Assembly (NCBI GenBank): GCA_016935665.1
Contig: JAFGQN010000144.1
Span: 1-35,633, forward strand
Direction of reading: 5' to 3'
DNA: 35,633 bases
Origin: Deltaproteobacteria bacterium
GTDB taxonomy: Bacteria; Myxococcota_A; Polyangia; JAAYKL01
Part shown: positions 26,505 to 35,462 of the stretch, piece after piece
How positions within the stretch are numbered: position 1 is the stretch's first letter
Layout of the letters: every line of letters begins with the position of its first letter
The notes under the pieces: generated by a model
Told to the model about the DNA's origin: nothing
The model's input: the letters and a program-made list of their open reading frames with translations, nothing else
Database searches by the model: none
Translations under genes and position numbers: made by a program

Positions 26505-26603
26505 ATTGGATTTCCAGACAGATACCGGATTTGACAGAGATTTCAGAAAGTATTGGAGCCGCAATATATTTTTGGGGTATCATCCATCTTACCCGGTAAA
26601 ATT

Positions 26604-26618
26604 GACAACAGAGTTGTC
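26604..26618. promoter_or_regulatory. Palindromic site, copy 2
   Basis: GACAAC-AGA-GTTGTC, a perfect inverted repeat, 14 bp before the GGAG of the kinase gene; one T-G and one T-A pair extend it to eight pairs. It could be an operator or, if transcribed, a leader hairpin. Confidence 0.55.
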
Positions 26619-26642
26619 GAATGCATTTTGCAGGAGAAAGAG

Positions 26643-29600
26643 ATGTTCACAGTAAATCACAGGTACAAAGCCCTGCGTCGGCTGGGCACCGGGACTCAGG
26701 GGGCAGTGTACGAGGTGTTTGATTTGCTGGAATCCCAAAAACGGGCATTGAAGATATGTTCGCCGGCCACTTCGTGCGCTCTGGAAACCGAATACTTTCA
26801 TCTGCTGGAGCTGCATCATCCCAATCTGGCAAAAGTATTCGATTTTCAGCGGGTTCATCATGTTGAACCACAAGGGACGATGGAAACAGGGCTTGTCTTT
26901 TTTACCGAAGAGTTTCTCGAGGGCGTGCGCGCAGATGAGTTTATCGCGTCTTTGCCCGAGGCTGAGCGACTGGCGGCGGTGGCTCAGGCGGGAGTGGGGG
27001 TGGCCCGCGCTCTGCGAATGCTGCACTCCAGGGGGATGCTTCACCTGGATGTGAAACCATCGAATATTATTATTGAAGATAACGGAAATCCCCGTCTCAT
27101 CGATTTGGGTCTGGCTCGGTTTAGAGACGCTTCGGTGGGCACAACTGCTGGAACGCTGGGGTACATGGCGGCTGAAGTGTTTGAAGGAATCGCCGACGAG
27201 GGAACGGATATTTTCGCATTGGGGCAGGTATTGATTCAGCTGTTGAGTGGCATTGCGCCAAAGCCGCAAGTCAATGTGGTTTCAAAGATTCCCGCTTTTA
27301 TTCCCGACGCATTTGCGGAGGTGCTGCGCCGCATGACCCATCCAATGCTGGAGAAGCGATACTCCGCCAGAGAGACGATTCTGGCGATTTTAAAAAGCGG
27401 TGTACTGGATTTGGCGATGTTGGACAACCACCTGGATGATACCAGTGAGGCGGATGATTCATCAACGCGAATCGCTGCAGCGCGTTCCACTCGATTTATC
27501 GGGCGGACAGAGCAGTTGAATGCGCTGCAGAGCCTGTTGCTTGGCGCAGTGAAAGCCAGCGAAATTCGGGGCTGTGTGGTGCATGGCCCGGTGGGAATTG
27601 GCAAAACGCGGCTGGTTCGCAAAGTCGTCACCGCCCTGCAGGTGCACCAGGCACAGCTGGCGCAACAGTCATTGACTTTTTTATCGGGCACGCCTGACCG
27701 GGTGATACAAATGCTGGTCAATGCGTCGCCTTATCGGGATTTGACGCTGCTGAGAAATTGGCTTGAAGATGATACCGCTGAAGTGTCAACAGGCATCTCT
27801 GGTCGGCGACAATATGTCAGTGAAGCGTTGATTGTTCAGTTGCTCGAAGAATTATCGCGATTTCACGGGCCAACGGTTGTTTTGTTTGAAGAAGCGAGTG
27901 TTTCTCAAATCGCGATGGTGAACGATATATTGAGTGAGCACGTATTTCAAAATGAATCCGCATTGATTCTCATTTTCGAAAATGCAGACGTGGATTTGTC
28001 GCTGGACGATTTGTCTCCCACTGCCGTGATTCAGTTGTCACCGCTGTCTTTGACGGAAGAGCGGCAAATGGTATCCGGTATCGTGGCTGGGGAATTGACA
28101 GAGAGACAACTGGCGCAGTTTCACCGTGTCACAGCGGGCAATCCCCGGTTTGTCGAGGCGATGGTGGAACAGTTTTTTTCTGCCGATTCATCTCATCCGC
28201 TGGGCCATCTGCCGGCCGAAATTGCATTTTCAGGGGACCCGCACCAGTTGGTATCCAACCGATTGCTGAACGAGTTTCGTCACTGGCGGCGGGATGTGTT
28301 GCAATTGCTTTCCATTGCCAAAGCGCCACTGCATACCGAGGAGTTGCAACGAATGGTCGACTGTCAAAGATGCGGCACCCCCACCGTATTGGAGCTGAAT
28401 GCCTTTTTAAATCAGCTCAGACTTGCTGGATATTTGCATCACGATGCGGGGCGAGTGTCGTTGGTGCAATACCTGGTGCAGGGCATCTTCGAGCGAACAA
28501 CACCAGAGGACCAACAGCGTCTTCACCGTCGATTGTATGAAAATTTGAATCACGATCGGGGCTTTGAACATCGTGCTGTTCACGCCTTTTTGGCAGGATT
28601 GTTCGTAGAGGCGGCGCCACTGTTGAACGACGCCGCACAACGGGCCATTGCGAAAGGAAATACGACCGGTGCAGTCGGTTTTCTGGAGATGCTCCTCGCC
28701 TGTTCAAAGGAGAATCTCACCGATAAGCGCCTTGCACTGGTTATTTGTTATCGCAAATCGGGGCGCTACAGTGATGCCCTCAACCTGGTTGCGCAGATTT
28801 TGCAAAAAGGTCACGATGAGCGAGCGATATTGGAGAAAGCCGCGTCATTGCGTATGATGGGGCAAACCAAAGATGCGGCATCCATCCTTGAATCGCTTTC
28901 GGCATCAACGAATAATTTCATCGCAGCGTCAGCCACAGCGTTGCTGGCGCGCATGAAACTGGACAGTGGGCGTATTAACGACGGCCTTCGCATGGTGGAA
29001 GGTGTGGTGTTGCCCGACGATATCGCTCATGAAAGCGGTATGCTGAATATTCAGGGGCTGCTGCTGTTGACCGTTGGCGATACGCATCGGGCGGGCCAGA
29101 TATTCGAAAAGGGCTTATCTGTGGTGAAGGGGACCAGTTCCATTGAGGAAGGGCGGTACAATTCGTATCTGGGCATGGTGGCGCATGCGGAAAAAAGATG
29201 GGATGAAGCGGTCGCCCGTTATGAAGCGGCGTTCAGACTGGCTGACGATGCCGGAGACAGCCATGGCGCTGCCACATATGTGGTGAACTGGGCAGCGGCG
29301 TTGACAGAGCAGGGGGATTATACCAATGCGTTGAAACGCTACCGAAATGGGTTGACGCGTTTGCGTATGGTGGGTCGGCCGGCGGAGCTGATTCAAACCG
29401 AAGCCAATTATGCGCAGTTGTTGCTCCGGTTGGGCGACGCCACCGGAGCGTTAACGGTGTCGGAAAAGGCGCTGCGGGATACCGATGAACACAGCGCGCC
29501 CCTGGTAAGAGGATATGCATTGTCTGTGATGGGAGAGTCCCTGGTGGCAACGGGGCGATTTGATGAGGCGGTGCGCATTCTGGAGCAGGCGCAGCTTGCC

Positions 29601-31634
29601 TACGGGAATTCGGGGCAACGCGATCGACTGGATTATTGCCGGTTGCATCAGGCGGACGCCCTGGTTCATCAAAAAAGGCACGAAGATGCAGCCCGTTGCA
29701 TTTCGCTGATTACGGATTCGGTGGTTTTGGGCTCCTATCTTTACGCACTCACCCGGGTGCTGCTGGCGTTGCAGGATGGCGAATCTTTACGTCCGGTGTT
29801 ACAGGCGCTGGAATCTCGATTGCAGCAAAAACCGTCTGCATTAAATCTTGAATACTACCGGGCATTGGCGGTGGCAGCCATTGCGCTTATCAAGGAGGGG
29901 GCCTTTGAAAAAAGTCGATTGTATGTGGAAGGAGCGTTGGCGCAGTTGAGTGAATTTCGAAAGCAGACACCCGCGCTTCATCAGCCACCGGTATACCCCT
30001 ACGAAATTCAACTCAATCAGATGCGGACACAGTCCGATTTTTCCAGCAGCATTGATGGCGCAGAAAACAGGGACGGCAGTATGAAGCAAATGTGGATGGA
30101 ACGCCTTTTCCGCATAGCGGCAAGATTGAATTCAGAACTGAAAATCAATGCACAGCTGGATATTATCATGGATACCGCTATTGATGTGACCAACGCCGAA
30201 CGCGGGTTTCTGTTATTGCAGGAGGAAGACGGCCGGTTTGCCATCCGGTCTGCCCGAAATATGGACAGCGAAGCGTTGATAAAAGAAGAACGCAATTACT
30301 CAGGTACTATCGCCAGACGCGCATTTTTGCTTGGTGAACCTATATTTACAACCAATGCGCAGGAGGACGAGCGGTATCGCGACTATCGCAGCATTGCGTC
30401 GTTGAACCTCATGTACATCATCGCGGTCCCCCTGCTGGTAAAAGGGAAAGCGCAGGGAACCATTTATCTCGATAGTACGATGCGTGGCAAGTTTGACGGG
30501 GAACGGGTTGATTTGCTTAAAATGCTTGCAAACCAGGCCGCCATTGCTCTGACCAATGCGCGGCTGGTCACCCACGTTCAGCGGAGCAGAGAACAGATTG
30601 AATCACTCAATCGCAAGCTCGAAAGTCGATTGGCAACCGCCGAGCGTGAACTGGCGCAGACGCGCCAGGATTTGCGGGAGATGAATGATACCATGGCCGC
30701 CAAGTACAGCTATTTTGGGATGATTGGCAGTTCTCAACCCATGCGGGATATGTTTCGCGTGCTCGATCGCATTGCGGCCACTGATATTCCCGTGGTCATC
30801 AGTGGTGAATCCGGTACCGGAAAAGAACTGGTGGCCAGAGCGATTCATCAGGCCGGATCGCGCAGTGAGAAACCGTTTGTCGCAGAGAACTGTGCCGCCA
30901 TTCCATCACAATTACTCGAGAGCATTTTGTTTGGTCACGTGCGTGGCGCATTTACCGGTGCTGTAAAAAATCGCAGCGGGTTATTTGTGGAAGCCCATGG
31001 CGGAACACTGTTTCTGGATGAAATTGCTGAATTGCCTATTGAAATGCAATCCAAGCTTTTACGGGCATTGCAGGAAGGCGAAGTTCGACCGGTGGGGCAG
31101 AATCATTCGGTGAAGGTGGATGTTCGCATTCTGGTGGCATCCAACGCGGATTTAAAAAAGCGGGTGGCTGAAGGACGGTTTCGCGAAGATTTATACTATC
31201 GGCTTCATGTAATGGAAGTGCGGTTGCCTCCGCTCCGTGACAGAGGCGAAGATGTACTGCTGTTGGCCAACCATTTCATTTTAAAACACGCGGCTCAGGG
31301 GCGAATCACCATGACTCCGGAAACCATGGAACAGCTAATGAGTTATCGCTGGCCAGGAAACGTGCGCCAGCTGGAAAACGAAATTGTACGTGCATCTGTA
31401 ATGTGCACAGACACCATGGAGATTCAGCATTTCAGCGATACCATCCGGGAATTTTCTGTTACGGGCCGAGATGAATGGACAGATTTGAATATCGACAACC
31501 ACGTGAATCGGCTTAAAACACAGCTCATTCGCTCTGCACTGAAAAAAAGCGGCGGTAACCGCAGCAAGGCCGCAGATCTGCTGGGTATATCAAGGTATGG
31601 CCTTCAAAAAATGATGGCGCGTTTGAATTTGTAA
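26643..31634 (+). CDS. Ser/Thr kinase - ATPase - TPR - GAF - sigma54 activator - Fis multidomain regulator
   Basis: 1663 residues from ATG 26643, which has GGAG six bases upstream; a TTG 90 bases further up has no support. Domains: Ser/Thr kinase 8-270 with LGTGTQGAVY, ALKIC, catalytic HLDVKPSN near 135, DLGLARF and GTLGYMAAEV, apparently active. An STAND/AAA-like ATPase follows with Walker A GPVGIGKTR near 315. A long TPR-like helical region runs about 640-1140, then GAF 1150-1315 and a coiled coil. The sigma54-interacting AAA+ domain is 1356-1590 with GESGTGKE near 1387, GAFTGA near 1434 and GTLFLDEIAELP. A Fis-type helix-turn-helix lies near 1635-1663 (GGNRSKAADLLGIS). It should sense a signal through GAF/TPR and switch on sigma54 promoters. 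All motifs look intact. Chimeras of this type are known mainly from Myxococcota. Confidence 0.95.
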   Translation: MFTVNHRYKALRRLGTGTQGAVYEVFDLLESQKRALKICSPATSCALETEYFHLLELHHPNLAKVFDFQRVHHVEPQGTMETGLVFFTEEFLEGVRADEFIASLPEAERLAAVAQAGVGVARALRMLHSRGMLHLDVKPSNIIIEDNGNPRLIDLGLARFRDASVGTTAGTLGYMAAEVFEGIADEGTDIFALGQVLIQLLSGIAPKPQVNVVSKIPAFIPDAFAEVLRRMTHPMLEKRYSARETILAILKSGVLDLAMLDNHLDDTSEADDSSTRIAAARSTRFIGRTEQLNALQSLLLGAVKASEIRGCVVHGPVGIGKTRLVRKVVTALQVHQAQLAQQSLTFLSGTPDRVIQMLVNASPYRDLTLLRNWLEDDTAEVSTGISGRRQYVSEALIVQLLEELSRFHGPTVVLFEEASVSQIAMVNDILSEHVFQNESALILIFENADVDLSLDDLSPTAVIQLSPLSLTEERQMVSGIVAGELTERQLAQFHRVTAGNPRFVEAMVEQFFSADSSHPLGHLPAEIAFSGDPHQLVSNRLLNEFRHWRRDVLQLLSIAKAPLHTEELQRMVDCQRCGTPTVLELNAFLNQLRLAGYLHHDAGRVSLVQYLVQGIFERTTPEDQQRLHRRLYENLNHDRGFEHRAVHAFLAGLFVEAAPLLNDAAQRAIAKGNTTGAVGFLEMLLACSKENLTDKRLALVICYRKSGRYSDALNLVAQILQKGHDERAILEKAASLRMMGQTKDAASILESLSASTNNFIAASATALLARMKLDSGRINDGLRMVEGVVLPDDIAHESGMLNIQGLLLLTVGDTHRAGQIFEKGLSVVKGTSSIEEGRYNSYLGMVAHAEKRWDEAVARYEAAFRLADDAGDSHGAATYVVNWAAALTEQGDYTNALKRYRNGLTRLRMVGRPAELIQTEANYAQLLLRLGDATGALTVSEKALRDTDEHSAPLVRGYALSVMGESLVATGRFDEAVRILEQAQLAYGNSGQRDRLDYCRLHQADALVHQKRHEDAARCISLITDSVVLGSYLYALTRVLLALQDGESLRPVLQALESRLQQKPSALNLEYYRALAVAAIALIKEGAFEKSRLYVEGALAQLSEFRKQTPALHQPPVYPYEIQLNQMRTQSDFSSSIDGAENRDGSMKQMWMERLFRIAARLNSELKINAQLDIIMDTAIDVTNAERGFLLLQEEDGRFAIRSARNMDSEALIKEERNYSGTIARRAFLLGEPIFTTNAQEDERYRDYRSIASLNLMYIIAVPLLVKGKAQGTIYLDSTMRGKFDGERVDLLKMLANQAAIALTNARLVTHVQRSREQIESLNRKLESRLATAERELAQTRQDLREMNDTMAAKYSYFGMIGSSQPMRDMFRVLDRIAATDIPVVISGESGTGKELVARAIHQAGSRSEKPFVAENCAAIPSQLLESILFGHVRGAFTGAVKNRSGLFVEAHGGTLFLDEIAELPIEMQSKLLRALQEGEVRPVGQNHSVKVDVRILVASNADLKKRVAEGRFREDLYYRLHVMEVRLPPLRDRGEDVLLLANHFILKHAAQGRITMTPETMEQLMSYRWPGNVRQLENEIVRASVMCTDTMEIQHFSDTIREFSVTGRDEWTDLNIDNHVNRLKTQLIRSALKKSGGNRSKAADLLGISRYGLQKMMARLNL

Positions 31635-31728: not shown

Positions 31729-32454
31729 TTATTCTGCTGCTTCGGCGGCGGGGGCAGCCGCTGGTGCAGGGGCCGGATCCGGTGCTGCCGCTGCGGGTTT
31801 TTCTTCCGCGGGCGCCGGCGCTGCTGCTGCTTTTTCTTCCGCTGCGTCAACCGGTGCTGCCGCCGGGCGTTTTTTTGCAACTGGCTTTGCCTTCGGTTTG
31901 GCGACGGCGGGTGCGGGTGTCGCCGCAGCTTCTTCCTCAGTGGGGGCTTCTACAGCTTCTTCAGGCGCATTCTGTTCGGCTTCAGGTTCTGCTGCTTCTG
32001 CGTCTTCGGCACTGTCGTTAGCATCTGCACTGTCATTGCCTTCTTCTTCTGCCGTTGAGTCCGCATCCTCTTCAGCTGCTGAATCCTCTTCAACCGCTTT
32101 ATTATCAGCAGCGTCATCTGCGACATCTTCTTTTGATTCGGATTTACCAAACTCTTTAGCGATGTCCACTTTCTCACCATTGTTTTCCATCTCCATCAGG
32201 CTCGCTTTTTTCTCCAGCCCCGAAGACTTGGAAGAAGACGAATACGCCAGAACGATGGAAGAAAACATAAACAGGAATGCAACCACTCCGGTCAGTTTTC
32301 CGATGAACGAACCGGCGCCTCTGGGACCAAATACGCTGGAACCACTACCGCCGAAGGCCACTCCCATTCCGCCACCTTTGCCGGTCTGCAAAAGGATGAC
32401 CAGAATCAGAAACAAACAGAAAATGATGTGTAAAGTTGTGAGTAAATAAATCAT
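31729..32454 (-). CDS. secG: SecG preprotein translocase subunit with long low-complexity tail
   Basis: 241 residues; ordinary SecG has about 75-110. Residues 1-72 are SecG-like: a first membrane helix ([20 protein letters not shown]), the conserved [21 protein letters not shown] loop, and a second helix ending in [10 protein letters not shown]. Residues about 75-241 are a disordered tail, first acidic (Asp/Glu/Ala/Ser), then Ala/Pro/Lys/Glu repeats such as [12 protein letters not shown]. No frameshift is needed to read through. SecG aids SecYEG protein export. Its place behind pgk-tpiA is conserved in many bacteria. ATG 32454 has only a weak ribosome site. Confidence 0.9.
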
Positions 32455-32560: not shown

Positions 32561-33313
32561 TTATGCGCCAGCGATAATTCCCAGGAAAGAGTCGGCTTTC
32601 AGAGCAGCGCCACCAACCAGTGCACCATCCACATCGGGCTGTGCCAGCAGGTCTTTTGCATTGTCGGGTTTAACGCTGCCACCGTACTGAATTCTCACTT
32701 TGTCCGCAGTTTCCTGATCGAACAATTTTGCAACCAGCTCGCGGATGAATTTGTGAGCGGACTGGGCCTGTTCCGTGGTGGCCACTTTGCCTGTACCGAT
32801 AGCCCATACAGGTTCGTAGGCGATGGTCACTTTTTCCAGTTGCTCTTTGGTGAGTCCCTTGATTCCGGCGACGGTCTGCTCTTCTAGAACTTTCTCGGTT
32901 TCGTTGGCTTCGCGCTCTTCCAGTTTTTCGCCAACGCAAAGAATTACTTCGAGTCCTTCCGCCAGCAACGCATCTGTTTTCTTACGAATGATTTCATCTG
33001 TTTCGCCGATAACGTGGCGGCGCTCAGAGTGACCAACCAGTGCGAATTCCACTCCAGCGTCTTTAAGCATGGCTGTGGAGATTTCGCCGGTAAACGCGCC
33101 GTTTTTCTCAAAATAGACATCCTGTGCGCCAAGGCGAACCGGAGTGCCGACAACTACTTCTTTCACCGCACCGATGGCCAGAAATTGAGGAATCACTGCC
33201 ACATCGGCATTGGCATCCGCAGGAAGATGGGCGACAACGGCTTTGGCCAATTCCACTGCTTCTGCGATTGTACAATTCATTTTCCAGTTTCCTGCTACGA
33301 AGGCTTTACGCAT
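32561..33313 (-). CDS. tpiA: Triosephosphate isomerase
   Basis: 250 residues from ATG 33313, with GAGG nine bases upstream; a TTG two codons earlier is less likely. Interconverts dihydroxyacetone phosphate and glyceraldehyde 3-phosphate. All catalytic features are intact: NWKMN (Asn and Lys), GHSERR (His electrophile), the YEPVWAIGTGK segment (Glu base and flexible loop 6), IQYGGSVKPDN and DGALVGGAAL phosphate loops. Normal length, no anomaly. It sits between a degenerate phosphoglycerate-kinase-like gene and secG, the classical pgk-tpiA-secG order. Confidence 0.97.
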   Translation of the reverse strand: MRKAFVAGNWKMNCTIAEAVELAKAVVAHLPADANADVAVIPQFLAIGAVKEVVVGTPVRLGAQDVYFEKNGAFTGEISTAMLKDAGVEFALVGHSERRHVIGETDEIIRKKTDALLAEGLEVILCVGEKLEEREANETEKVLEEQTVAGIKGLTKEQLEKVTIAYEPVWAIGTGKVATTEQAQSAHKFIRELVAKLFDQETADKVRIQYGGSVKPDNAKDLLAQPDVDGALVGGAALKADSFLGIIAGA

Positions 33314-33336
33314 AATCAATACCTCATTTGTGAAAG

Positions 33337-33416: not shown

Positions 33417-34634
33417 TTATTTCATCGTCTGCGCATTTCCCATTGCGAGAACGGTGGGCAGCGTTTTTCCCTCGACCATCCGAATGGTGGCATCACCGCC
33501 GTCCGAAACATGATCAAATCCTTTTTCCAATCCCAGCGTTCTGATGATTTCGGCGCTTTCTTCGCCAAGCGACAGGGAGTAAGCTGCGGCGCCGGCGATT
33601 GCGCGTGCAACTGTATAAGTGCCGCTGTCAGCGCGGGCAGCCATGCCCAGGTGTCCTTTCCAGACGATGGTTCCCGCTTTGCGAATCAACTGTTTCCAAA
33701 ACTCTTCGGTATGGCTGCCAATATCGAATATATTTGCCGATTCGGGAACTTCACCTGCCGCATATTCCGTCACCGCATCCGCGGTAATCCCGGCACGCAC
33801 ATCCGAAGGAAGAATCAATTTAATGTTTTTACGTGCCGTACGATCCAGCAGATCTCGAGCCAGCGGCAGTCGTTTCTCTTCCACGACCGCTTTTCCGGTG
33901 CTGCCGCCGGTTGCCGCAGTAAATGTGTTGGTCATTTGTCCGCCCAGAACCAGTGAATCGATTCTGCCCAAAAGGCTTTCCAGAAGCTCCAGGTTGTCGG
34001 CGATGCGATCTCCTCCCAGTATCGCCATCACGGGACGCTCGGGTTTGCCAAGAAATTTACGCAACGCTTTAAGCTCTTTGGCGTATTGCAGGCCAGTGAC
34101 CTTGATTCGCGCATGCTTCAAAATACCATTGGTGGACGCCAGCACCTGTTCACTCAGCGAAAACGCCTCGTTTACATATATGTCGCAATAGGATGCCAGT
34201 TGGCGGGATAACTTTTCGTCGTTTTTTATTTCGCCGGCATGAAAGCCCAGGTTTTCCAGCACACAGACCTGTCCTTCGCGCAACCCGGCAATCACACTTT
34301 TGGCGGCGTCACCCACGCAGGAATCCGTAAGATAGACCTCTCCAATATGTTGACGCGCCGCAAACCAGGCGGCAATGGGTTCGAGGGACAGTTCTGGAAC
34401 CACTTTTCCACCGGCGTCGCCCATATGCCCGCACAGCACCACGCGTGCGCCGTTCTCGATGAGGTAATCAATAGTGGGCATGGCCGTTTTTAAAAGGTTA
34501 TCATTAAGAATCTTCTGGTTTTCCAGTGGGACGTCCATATTGATGCGCACGAGTACGCGTCTGGACTCCACTTCCAGATCCTTTAATGAAAGGGCTTGGT
34601 TTGGATATATTGATGTTCTGGCAGTTTCTTTCAT
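33417..34634 (-). CDS. Phosphoglycerate-kinase-like protein with lost active site
   Basis: 405 residues from ATG 34634 (GTG 34646 possible). It is alignable with PGK from end to end, so the fold is surely PGK. Family residues that hold 3-phosphoglycerate are changed. RxDxNVP is RINMDVP (Asp to Asn, Asn to Asp). DxRIRAxxPTI is DNLLKTAMPTI (Arg to Leu). SHLGRP is GHMGDA (Arg to Asp). LEN(V/L)RFH is LENLGFH (Arg to Gly). DAFGTAHRA is EAFSLSEQV (His-Arg to Glu-Gln). Nucleotide and catalytic sites are changed too: GGAKVxDK is GGDRIADN, GGGDT is SLGEES, WNGPxG is WKGHLG and STGGG is SDGGD. Known PGK chemistry looks impossible. It may be a structural or regulatory pseudoenzyme, or act on another substrate. 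It occupies the usual pgk position before tpiA-secG. Confidence 0.9.
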   Translation of the reverse strand: MKETARTSIYPNQALSLKDLEVESRRVLVRINMDVPLENQKILNDNLLKTAMPTIDYLIENGARVVLCGHMGDAGGKVVPELSLEPIAAWFAARQHIGEVYLTDSCVGDAAKSVIAGLREGQVCVLENLGFHAGEIKNDEKLSRQLASYCDIYVNEAFSLSEQVLASTNGILKHARIKVTGLQYAKELKALRKFLGKPERPVMAILGGDRIADNLELLESLLGRIDSLVLGGQMTNTFTAATGGSTGKAVVEEKRLPLARDLLDRTARKNIKLILPSDVRAGITADAVTEYAAGEVPESANIFDIGSHTEEFWKQLIRKAGTIVWKGHLGMAARADSGTYTVARAIAGAAAYSLSLGEESAEIIRTLGLEKGFDHVSDGGDATIRMVEGKTLPTVLAMGNAQTMK

Positions 34635-34817
34635 CTTAAGATTCACATTGTATAAAGAGCGTCATTTTCGCGGGAACCTTATGCCGGGATTTGCCTGTTC
34701 GTCAAGTAAAGAAAACATAAATGCTTGATTCCGATCAGTCCCTGGCATATGTACCTGATTTATTGAGCAACAATTGGCGCCACAAACGTAAAAATGCATT
34801 TGTTAGAGAGGTGATTT

Positions 34818-35462
34818 GTGTTTGAAAAAAAAATGGTTGTCATACTGGCAGTCGCTGTCATCGCAGGTGTTGCAATCGGGTACTTCGCGTTTGTGAGGAG
34901 GCCGCACTGGCAAACCAATGCCGATGAGGCCGCCACAGGTGTGGACGAAAAGGGGCACCCCTGGTTTGGGGCAAAGAATCCGAAAGTGATCATTCATGAA
35001 TATCTGGATTATGAATGCCCGCACTGTACCAGCGCCCATCGGGTATTGCGCAGCGTCATCGCCAGAGATTTGGATGAGGTCCGCATTGTGCGGCACGACT
35101 ACGCCCGCACCCCATGTGTCCAGAAAGTGGGTGATGAAACGACAATGTTGTGCCCCATGGTTCGCGCGGCGTCGTGCGCTGCGAAACATATTTCGTACTG
35201 GAAGTGGAATGATATGCTGATGGCACAACCACGTCATGAAACAGATAAGGGGATCGATGTATATCTGGCAGATATGGTGACAAAGCTGAAACTGCCGGAA
35301 GCCGAATTTCAGAAGTGCTTCGATTCGGTGGAAAACGCGGAGAAGGCACAGAAATTATATCTGGAGACGCGAGACGCTAAGGTGAGCGCAACGCCCACCT
35401 ACATCGTTAATGACAAGGTTTACACACCCAGCGAACTGTTCGAAATGCTGGAAACGCTATAA
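34818..35462 (+). CDS. Membrane-anchored DsbA-like thioredoxin-fold protein
   Basis: 214 residues from GTG 34818, with GAGAGG six bases upstream. An N-terminal helix (MVVILAVAVIAGVAIGYFAF) anchors it with the rest in the periplasm. The thioredoxin_4/DsbA-type domain has YLDYECPHC with CPHC as redox pair, a helical insert, and the cis-Pro loop SATPTYIVNDKVY. Three further Cys (TPC, MLCP, ASC) in the insert and one near FQKCFD could form a structural disulfide or relay. It should oxidise or isomerise disulfides. It is divergent from the PGK-like gene over 183 bp; no DsbB- or VKOR-like partner is next to it. Confidence 0.88.
   Translation: MFEKKMVVILAVAVIAGVAIGYFAFVRRPHWQTNADEAATGVDEKGHPWFGAKNPKVIIHEYLDYECPHCTSAHRVLRSVIARDLDEVRIVRHDYARTPCVQKVGDETTMLCPMVRAASCAAKHISYWKWNDMLMAQPRHETDKGIDVYLADMVTKLKLPEAEFQKCFDSVENAEKAQKLYLETRDAKVSATPTYIVNDKVYTPSELFEMLETL

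Follow-up and report, generated by a model that had tools for sequence, protein, structure and literature searches.

Gene organization of the locus

The window analysed here (the whole stretch of DNA, 35,633 nucleotides long) carries a pseudo-phosphoglycerate kinase gene (pseudo-pgk; 33417..34646), the triosephosphate isomerase gene tpiA (32561..33319; PF00121, 323 bits) and secG (31729..32454; PF03840, 72.6 bits; TIGR00810, 76.3 bits), which follow one another in this order on the minus strand. An earlier note on this DNA had assigned the gene to the canonical pgk-tpiA-secG position, in agreement with the finding that tpiA and secG follow on the same strand. The extent that it gave, 33417-34634, starts from an alternative ATG four codons inside an open reading frame that begins with GTG at 34646, encodes 409 amino acids and contains no internal stop. 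The tpiA gene lies downstream of pseudo-pgk at a spacing of 97 nt in the window genus, and its product is 96% identical in the nearest species (G001). SecG (31729-32454, minus strand) displays a long low-complexity Ala/Glu/Pro tail past its conserved 70-residue domain.

A divergent DsbA/thioredoxin-like gene (34818..35462, plus strand; PF13462, 60.5 bits) takes the place of gap beside pgk in the window lineage, and the same neighbour is present in genomes G001, G002, G008 and G010. The window also contains a very long gene (26553-31634, plus strand) whose product resembles, by eye, a Ser/Thr protein kinase at its N-terminus and a sigma-54 activator at its C-terminus. This product shows only ~54% identity between species of the genus, compared with 82% for the adjoining KamA and 96% for TpiA.

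A phosphoglycerate kinase fold with a lost active site

The window protein matches the phosphoglycerate kinase (PGK) profile PF00162 with 334.9 bits (cut-off 27) over profile positions 1-379 of 379, and PGK is the only domain detected. Its best match among solved structures is 1php (E 1e-77, 36% identity). Predicted alone by AlphaFold, the protein adopts a confident two-domain PGK fold (pLDDT 90.1; TM 0.89/0.92 against 1php), so that sequence and fold (AlphaFold, Foldseek) both place it in the PF00162 family over the full domain. The likeness to phosphoglycerate kinase (EC 2.7.2.3) thus comprises the full-length two-domain fold and the operon position. The difference resides in the active site, where 15 of 18 substrate, nucleotide and catalytic positions are replaced and only three retained, whereas canonical PGKs retain 17-18 of 18, and where the net charge of the 18 sites is -5 instead of ~+2.

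Aligned with canonical PGKs and given in the numbering of the window open reading frame, the replacements affect both halves of the catalytic machinery. The three phosphate-binding arginines (R65, R122 and R170) are changed to D77, G134 and Q167: the first lies in SHLGRP, which reads GHMGDA, the second is the arginine preceding FH, and the third belongs to AHR, which reads SEQ and in which the histidine is also changed, to E166. RVDFNVP has become RINMDVP (D23 to N36 and N25 to D38), and R38 is replaced by L51. Among the residues with known roles at the 3-phosphoglycerate site (R65, R122, R170, H62, Asp23 and Asn25; PMC7729029), only the histidine remains, as H74. The elements of the nucleotide and transition-state site are lost as well: GGAK reads GGDR, with R214 for its lysine, N218 stands at the second lysine, K330 and A337 have taken the places of the nucleotide-site residues N334 and E341, and the nucleotide loops GGGDS and STGGG have become LGEES and SDGGD. 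Every replacement listed in the earlier note is present in the open reading frame, with the single reservation that in GHMGDA the arginine is lost but the histidine is not; the changes to N36, D38, L51, K330 and A337 had escaped it. The reading of the protein as a pseudoenzyme, with three of 18 catalytic positions left, thus holds at the level of sequence, on which basis the window protein would almost certainly lack PGK activity.

A second PGK and the replacement of gap and pgk

The genome to which the window belongs (G000; 8.16 Mb, 249 contigs) encodes one other PGK (G000:C21:5596-6843; 507.7 bits), which retains 18 of 18 residues. A true pgk is therefore present elsewhere, as the earlier note had wondered, and the possibility that this genome has no other pgk is ruled out. 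The C21 protein shares only 37% identity with the window protein, and its gene adjoins neither gap nor tpiA.

Among 14 sampled genomes of the window family, six carry a pseudo-PGK at the tpiA locus (G000, G001, G002, G005, G008 and G010), the orthologues being 76, 70, 54 and ~45% identical to the window protein. Their occurrence in five separate assemblies rules out a single odd gene, chance, and sequencing or assembly error. All six genomes encode a second, canonical PGK. The remaining eight possess a single PGK, canonical and located at the locus, where its gene adjoins gap and tpiA wherever the contig reaches, except in G006, in which gap is found on another contig. The gap gene is absent from the locus in all six pseudo-PGK genomes. 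Their GAPDHs (including G000:C36; L169, L265, L161-L166) are 78-96% identical among themselves, whereas their identity to the resident type found in seven other family genomes is only 44-51%; G006 has a third GAPDH type. Because the GAPDHs of the six genomes belong to another lineage than the resident type and gap has left the locus, both gap and pgk have been replaced in the window family: the old gap is gone from the locus and the old pgk is retained.

Degenerate PGKs across Myxococcota

The search was extended to 318 genomes of the class and 284 of the phylum (Myxococcota); all matches were listed for genomes with at least two PGKs, and the second copies were then scored at the 18 positions. 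Two-copy genomes were chosen by detection, and the survey counts are accordingly not absolute frequencies. Residue scores are bimodal, 213 PGKs retaining 17-18 of 18 positions and 48 degenerate PGKs retaining 2-15. In 43 of the 48, the degenerate copy is directly upstream of tpiA and a canonical pgk of a different lineage resides elsewhere in the genome; often a mere few bases separate the stop of the degenerate pgk from the next frame. In three genomes (G226, G277 and G039) it is the copy not linked to tpiA that is degenerate, and in two others (G295 and G296) the degenerate copy still follows gap but tpiA has moved away. Divergence is greatest in copies parted from tpiA (P 5e-4, in a post hoc test whose P value ignores kinship). 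Apart from copies at contig edges, all degenerate PGKs are full-length, with no truncation or internal deletion, and no frameshift or stop was found in the tpiA-linked ones. The canonical partner has a gap gene upstream in family f24 and in G241. Some genomes contain two canonical PGKs (for example G024, G053, G054, G045, G131 and G184), as expected for an early stage.

Several individual cases deserve mention. In G298, a genome assembled as one 14.8 Mb contig, a second PGK match extends over two frames (G298:C1:8848887-8850058) and is perhaps a truly broken copy. The only PGK detected in G486 (L364, G486:C71) retains 13 of 18 residues; this assembly is 89% complete, and the canonical PGK is probably missing from it. 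G466 and G447 are no more than candidates for having only the foreign PGK after loss of the resident one, since both assemblies are gapped at tpiA.

As a control, 50 genomes outside the phylum were searched: 46 are single-copy and four (G564, G586, G555 and G575; L381, L382, L383 and L384) have a second match that belongs to another, fixed variant type and in no case reaches the degeneracy of most of the degenerate copies of Myxococcota. These Clostridia-type second PGKs share one set of changes (R65 to D, K217 to A, G394 to A or S, the rest retained) and represent a conserved PGK variant of another type.

Separate origins of the degenerate copies

In phylogenetic trees, the pseudo-PGKs of a family group with its canonical locus PGKs (families f1, f4, f24 and f11 in the class, f41 and f37 beyond it), and a copy retaining 12 of 18 residues (G044) lies beside one retaining 17 (G045) within one genus; the placement of the long-branched copies of f28, f55 and G206 is less sure. 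Orthologues with lost residues in other genomes do form a clade with the window protein, a question that the earlier note had left to a phylogeny. State changes number at least seven on the class tree and at least ten on the phylum tree, and are taken as losses because a full active site could hardly be regained. Forcing all pseudo-PGKs of the class tree into one clade is rejected (p-AU 8e-84), so that the class-level tree and the AU test rule out one ancient pseudo-PGK family inherited phylum-wide. The canonical partner copies form several clades of their own, apart from the locus copies, which points to a second PGK gained from elsewhere and gives no support to duplication within the genome as its source. 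Taken together, the sequences suggest about ten separate replacements across Myxococcota. The case of the window is one of a repeated, phylum-wide process, not one odd gene, and this goes beyond what the earlier note had in view.

Constraint on the pseudo-PGKs

Comparison of the window pseudo-PGK with that of G001 gives pN 0.16, pS 0.70 and dN/dS 0.09; in the same pair, tpiA gives 0.023 and the active PGK 0.041. Synonymous sites are near saturation in this pair, and other lineages therefore carry more weight. Values of dN/dS are 0.14-0.25 among five species of g34, 0.12-0.29 in g73, 0.11 for G269/G274 and 0.14 for G240/G241, with one divergent pair (G265/G266) at 0.41; pairwise values thus fall within 0.09-0.29 in five of the six groups compared, and within 0.11-0.29 where synonymous sites are unsaturated. 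In g34 and g73 most losses are common to the members, which indicates that the constraint acts after loss. The dN/dS of pseudo-PGKs is two to four times that of the active copy, and constraint on them is weaker than on the active enzyme. The window gene combines lost catalytic residues with conserved orthologues and purifying selection, the features of a pseudoenzyme, and is not the unique decaying copy that the earlier note had set as the alternative to selection keeping the protein. A selected protein-level function of the pseudo-PGK is likely.

Residues lost and residues kept

Catalytic columns have been lost preferentially: across 14 lineages their retention is 0.51, as against 0.77 for other columns that are just as invariant (permutation P 6e-4). 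The GGAK lysine persists in only three of 48 degenerate copies, whereas the structural residues E174, P188, G219, P263, D265 and G296 (1php numbering) are retained almost everywhere, and confident fold predictions were obtained for pseudo-PGKs of two separate lineages. The net charge of the 18 sites shifts from ~+2 in canonical PGKs to a mean of ~-1.7 in degenerate copies. Conservation in the window clade is lower in the former active-site columns than in the remainder of the protein (0.31 versus 0.52, P 0.002), and in other clades the site residues are no more conserved than the rest; position 25 apart, they vary between lineages. The earlier suggestion that the protein uses a new substrate fits poorly with these columns, which are the less conserved ones and differ between lineages.

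Position 25 stands out. Of 41 replacements of Asn25, 40 are to Asp, a residue that none of the 213 canonical PGKs has there, with 11 changes between Asp and not-Asp on the tree. Single-base changes lead from Asn to seven other amino acids, and random decay would therefore be expected to yield a mix at this position. An ionised Asp is unable to donate a hydrogen bond as Asn25 does. In active PGK this bond is donated to the substrate (PMC7729029); N25D may prevent substrate binding, or may stabilise a non-working protein.

Discussion

The distribution of pseudo-PGKs suggests, somewhat more probably than otherwise, that catalysis has passed to an incoming PGK and that the resident copy has been kept for a non-catalytic, tpiA-linked role. 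Gain of a second, unrelated and functional PGK would have freed the resident pgk of the gap-pgk-tpiA locus from catalysis, and this copy would then have lost its active site. It would not be junk but a folded two-domain protein still under selection, the most likely reason being that the PGK linked to tpiA in Myxococcota was already performing a second, non-catalytic role, one that depends on the fold but not on the active site and for which the incoming PGK was no substitute. The recurrence of this outcome favours a role that existed before the replacement, although whether the non-catalytic function predates active-site loss is an evenly balanced question. As a best guess, this role would be to act as a partner of TpiA or of some other enzyme encoded in the operon, a form that is possible but somewhat doubtful. 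The change of Asn25 to Asp and of a net positive to a net negative site would block 3-phosphoglycerate binding, and the pseudo-PGK would thereby be kept as a substrate-free scaffold. The whole sequence of events, in which an old separable non-catalytic function is preserved and at each foreign takeover N25D and loss of the basic patch yield a substrate-free partner of the triose-phosphate operon, is put forward tentatively, with more reserve than conviction. In favour of the main reading, in which the resident copy is kept for a non-catalytic role, all six pseudo-PGK genomes of the window family are two-copy, and in all eight single-copy genomes the locus PGK is canonical. Against that reading stand the genomes in which the degenerate copy lies elsewhere (G226, G277 and G039) or tpiA has moved (G295 and G296), as well as a constraint weaker than that on an enzyme. 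Linkage to tpiA is inherited and, taken alone, does not show contact.

The main rival to a partner role, rather doubtful in our view, holds that the reading frame is kept for expression of tpiA, through translational coupling or a shared transcript, and that the protein has no job of its own and need only fold without aggregating. Degenerate copies do lie directly upstream of tpiA, often with a few bases between the stop and the next frame, and selection on a highly expressed by-product to fold would also yield dN/dS below 1; pgk and tpiA may be co-translated in many of these genomes, and retention may be owed in part to tpiA expression. However, a short reading frame would serve this purpose, yet no truncated or internally deleted copies occur except at contig ends; 97 nt separate the genes in the window genus; and coupling alone leaves the parallel N25D change unexplained, although that change could be stabilising. 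Slow decay of a pseudogene after replacement, caught before disruption of the frame, would account for the graded series from 15 down to 2 of 18 retained residues and for evolution faster than that of the active copy and tpiA. Decay should however have produced far more non-synonymous change than a pN of 0.16 at a pS of 0.70 in G000/G001, dN/dS is well below 1 in pairs whose ancestor was already without the site (g34 and g73), and neither frameshift nor stop interrupts any tpiA-linked copy, all of which makes this account very improbable.

Two further explanations assign the protein a job outside the operon or a new ligand. Purified native, but not denatured, PGK and GAPDH of Myxococcus xanthus are reported to slow the growth of Escherichia coli (PMC10141889), and a moonlighting role that myxobacterial PGK plays beyond glycolysis, such as this growth inhibition, might have been left with the resident copy. 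This precedent would account for a fold kept across the phylum, but no N-terminal secretion signal is apparent by eye, and the gene for GAPDH, which has the same activity in that study, has been deleted from the locus here; such a function seems unlikely. An enzyme or sensor for another ligand in the same cleft is slightly harder still to credit. The non-random N25D and acidic replacements would be compatible with a metal or cation in the old site, but the variability of the other site residues between lineages, the low conservation of the site in the window clade (0.31 versus 0.52, P 0.002) and its unexceptional conservation in other clades argue against such a use of the cleft.

Among known systems, the Thermotoga PGK-TIM fusion (NCBIfam PRK13962) also has PGK next to TpiA, and the pseudo-PGK and TpiA of the window match the two halves of that model. 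The PGK half of the Thermotoga protein is active and fused, whereas in the window the genes are separate and the PGK appears dead. The kinetoplastid PGKL proteins of Trypanosoma brucei and Bodo saltans are PGK homologues thought to be inactive (PMC4106842 and PMC7729029) and, like the window protein, have lost substrate and nucleotide residues, with pocket residues not conserved between species. They are eukaryotic, flagellar, multidomain proteins (PGK, cyclic-nucleotide-binding domain and membrane segments) that have been lost in Leishmania. The window protein is without the cyclic-nucleotide-binding and membrane domains and does not belong with them; in contrast to PGKL, the Myxococcota proteins are single-domain, occupy the ancestral operon position, are accompanied by a replacement enzyme and have many separate origins. 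A search of the open-access literature turned up no account of bacterial PGK pseudoenzymes.

For annotation and metabolic modelling these proteins are a warning, as Pfam calls them PGK with hundreds of bits at the position where the real enzyme is expected; the parallel change of Asn25 to Asp offers a simple diagnostic. At least ten apparent replacements, with the predecessor kept full-length, inactive and at the same operon site, amount to a natural experiment, and the availability of canonical, transitional and dead copies within a single phylum makes the old question of selected non-catalytic roles of core glycolytic enzymes directly testable in bacteria.
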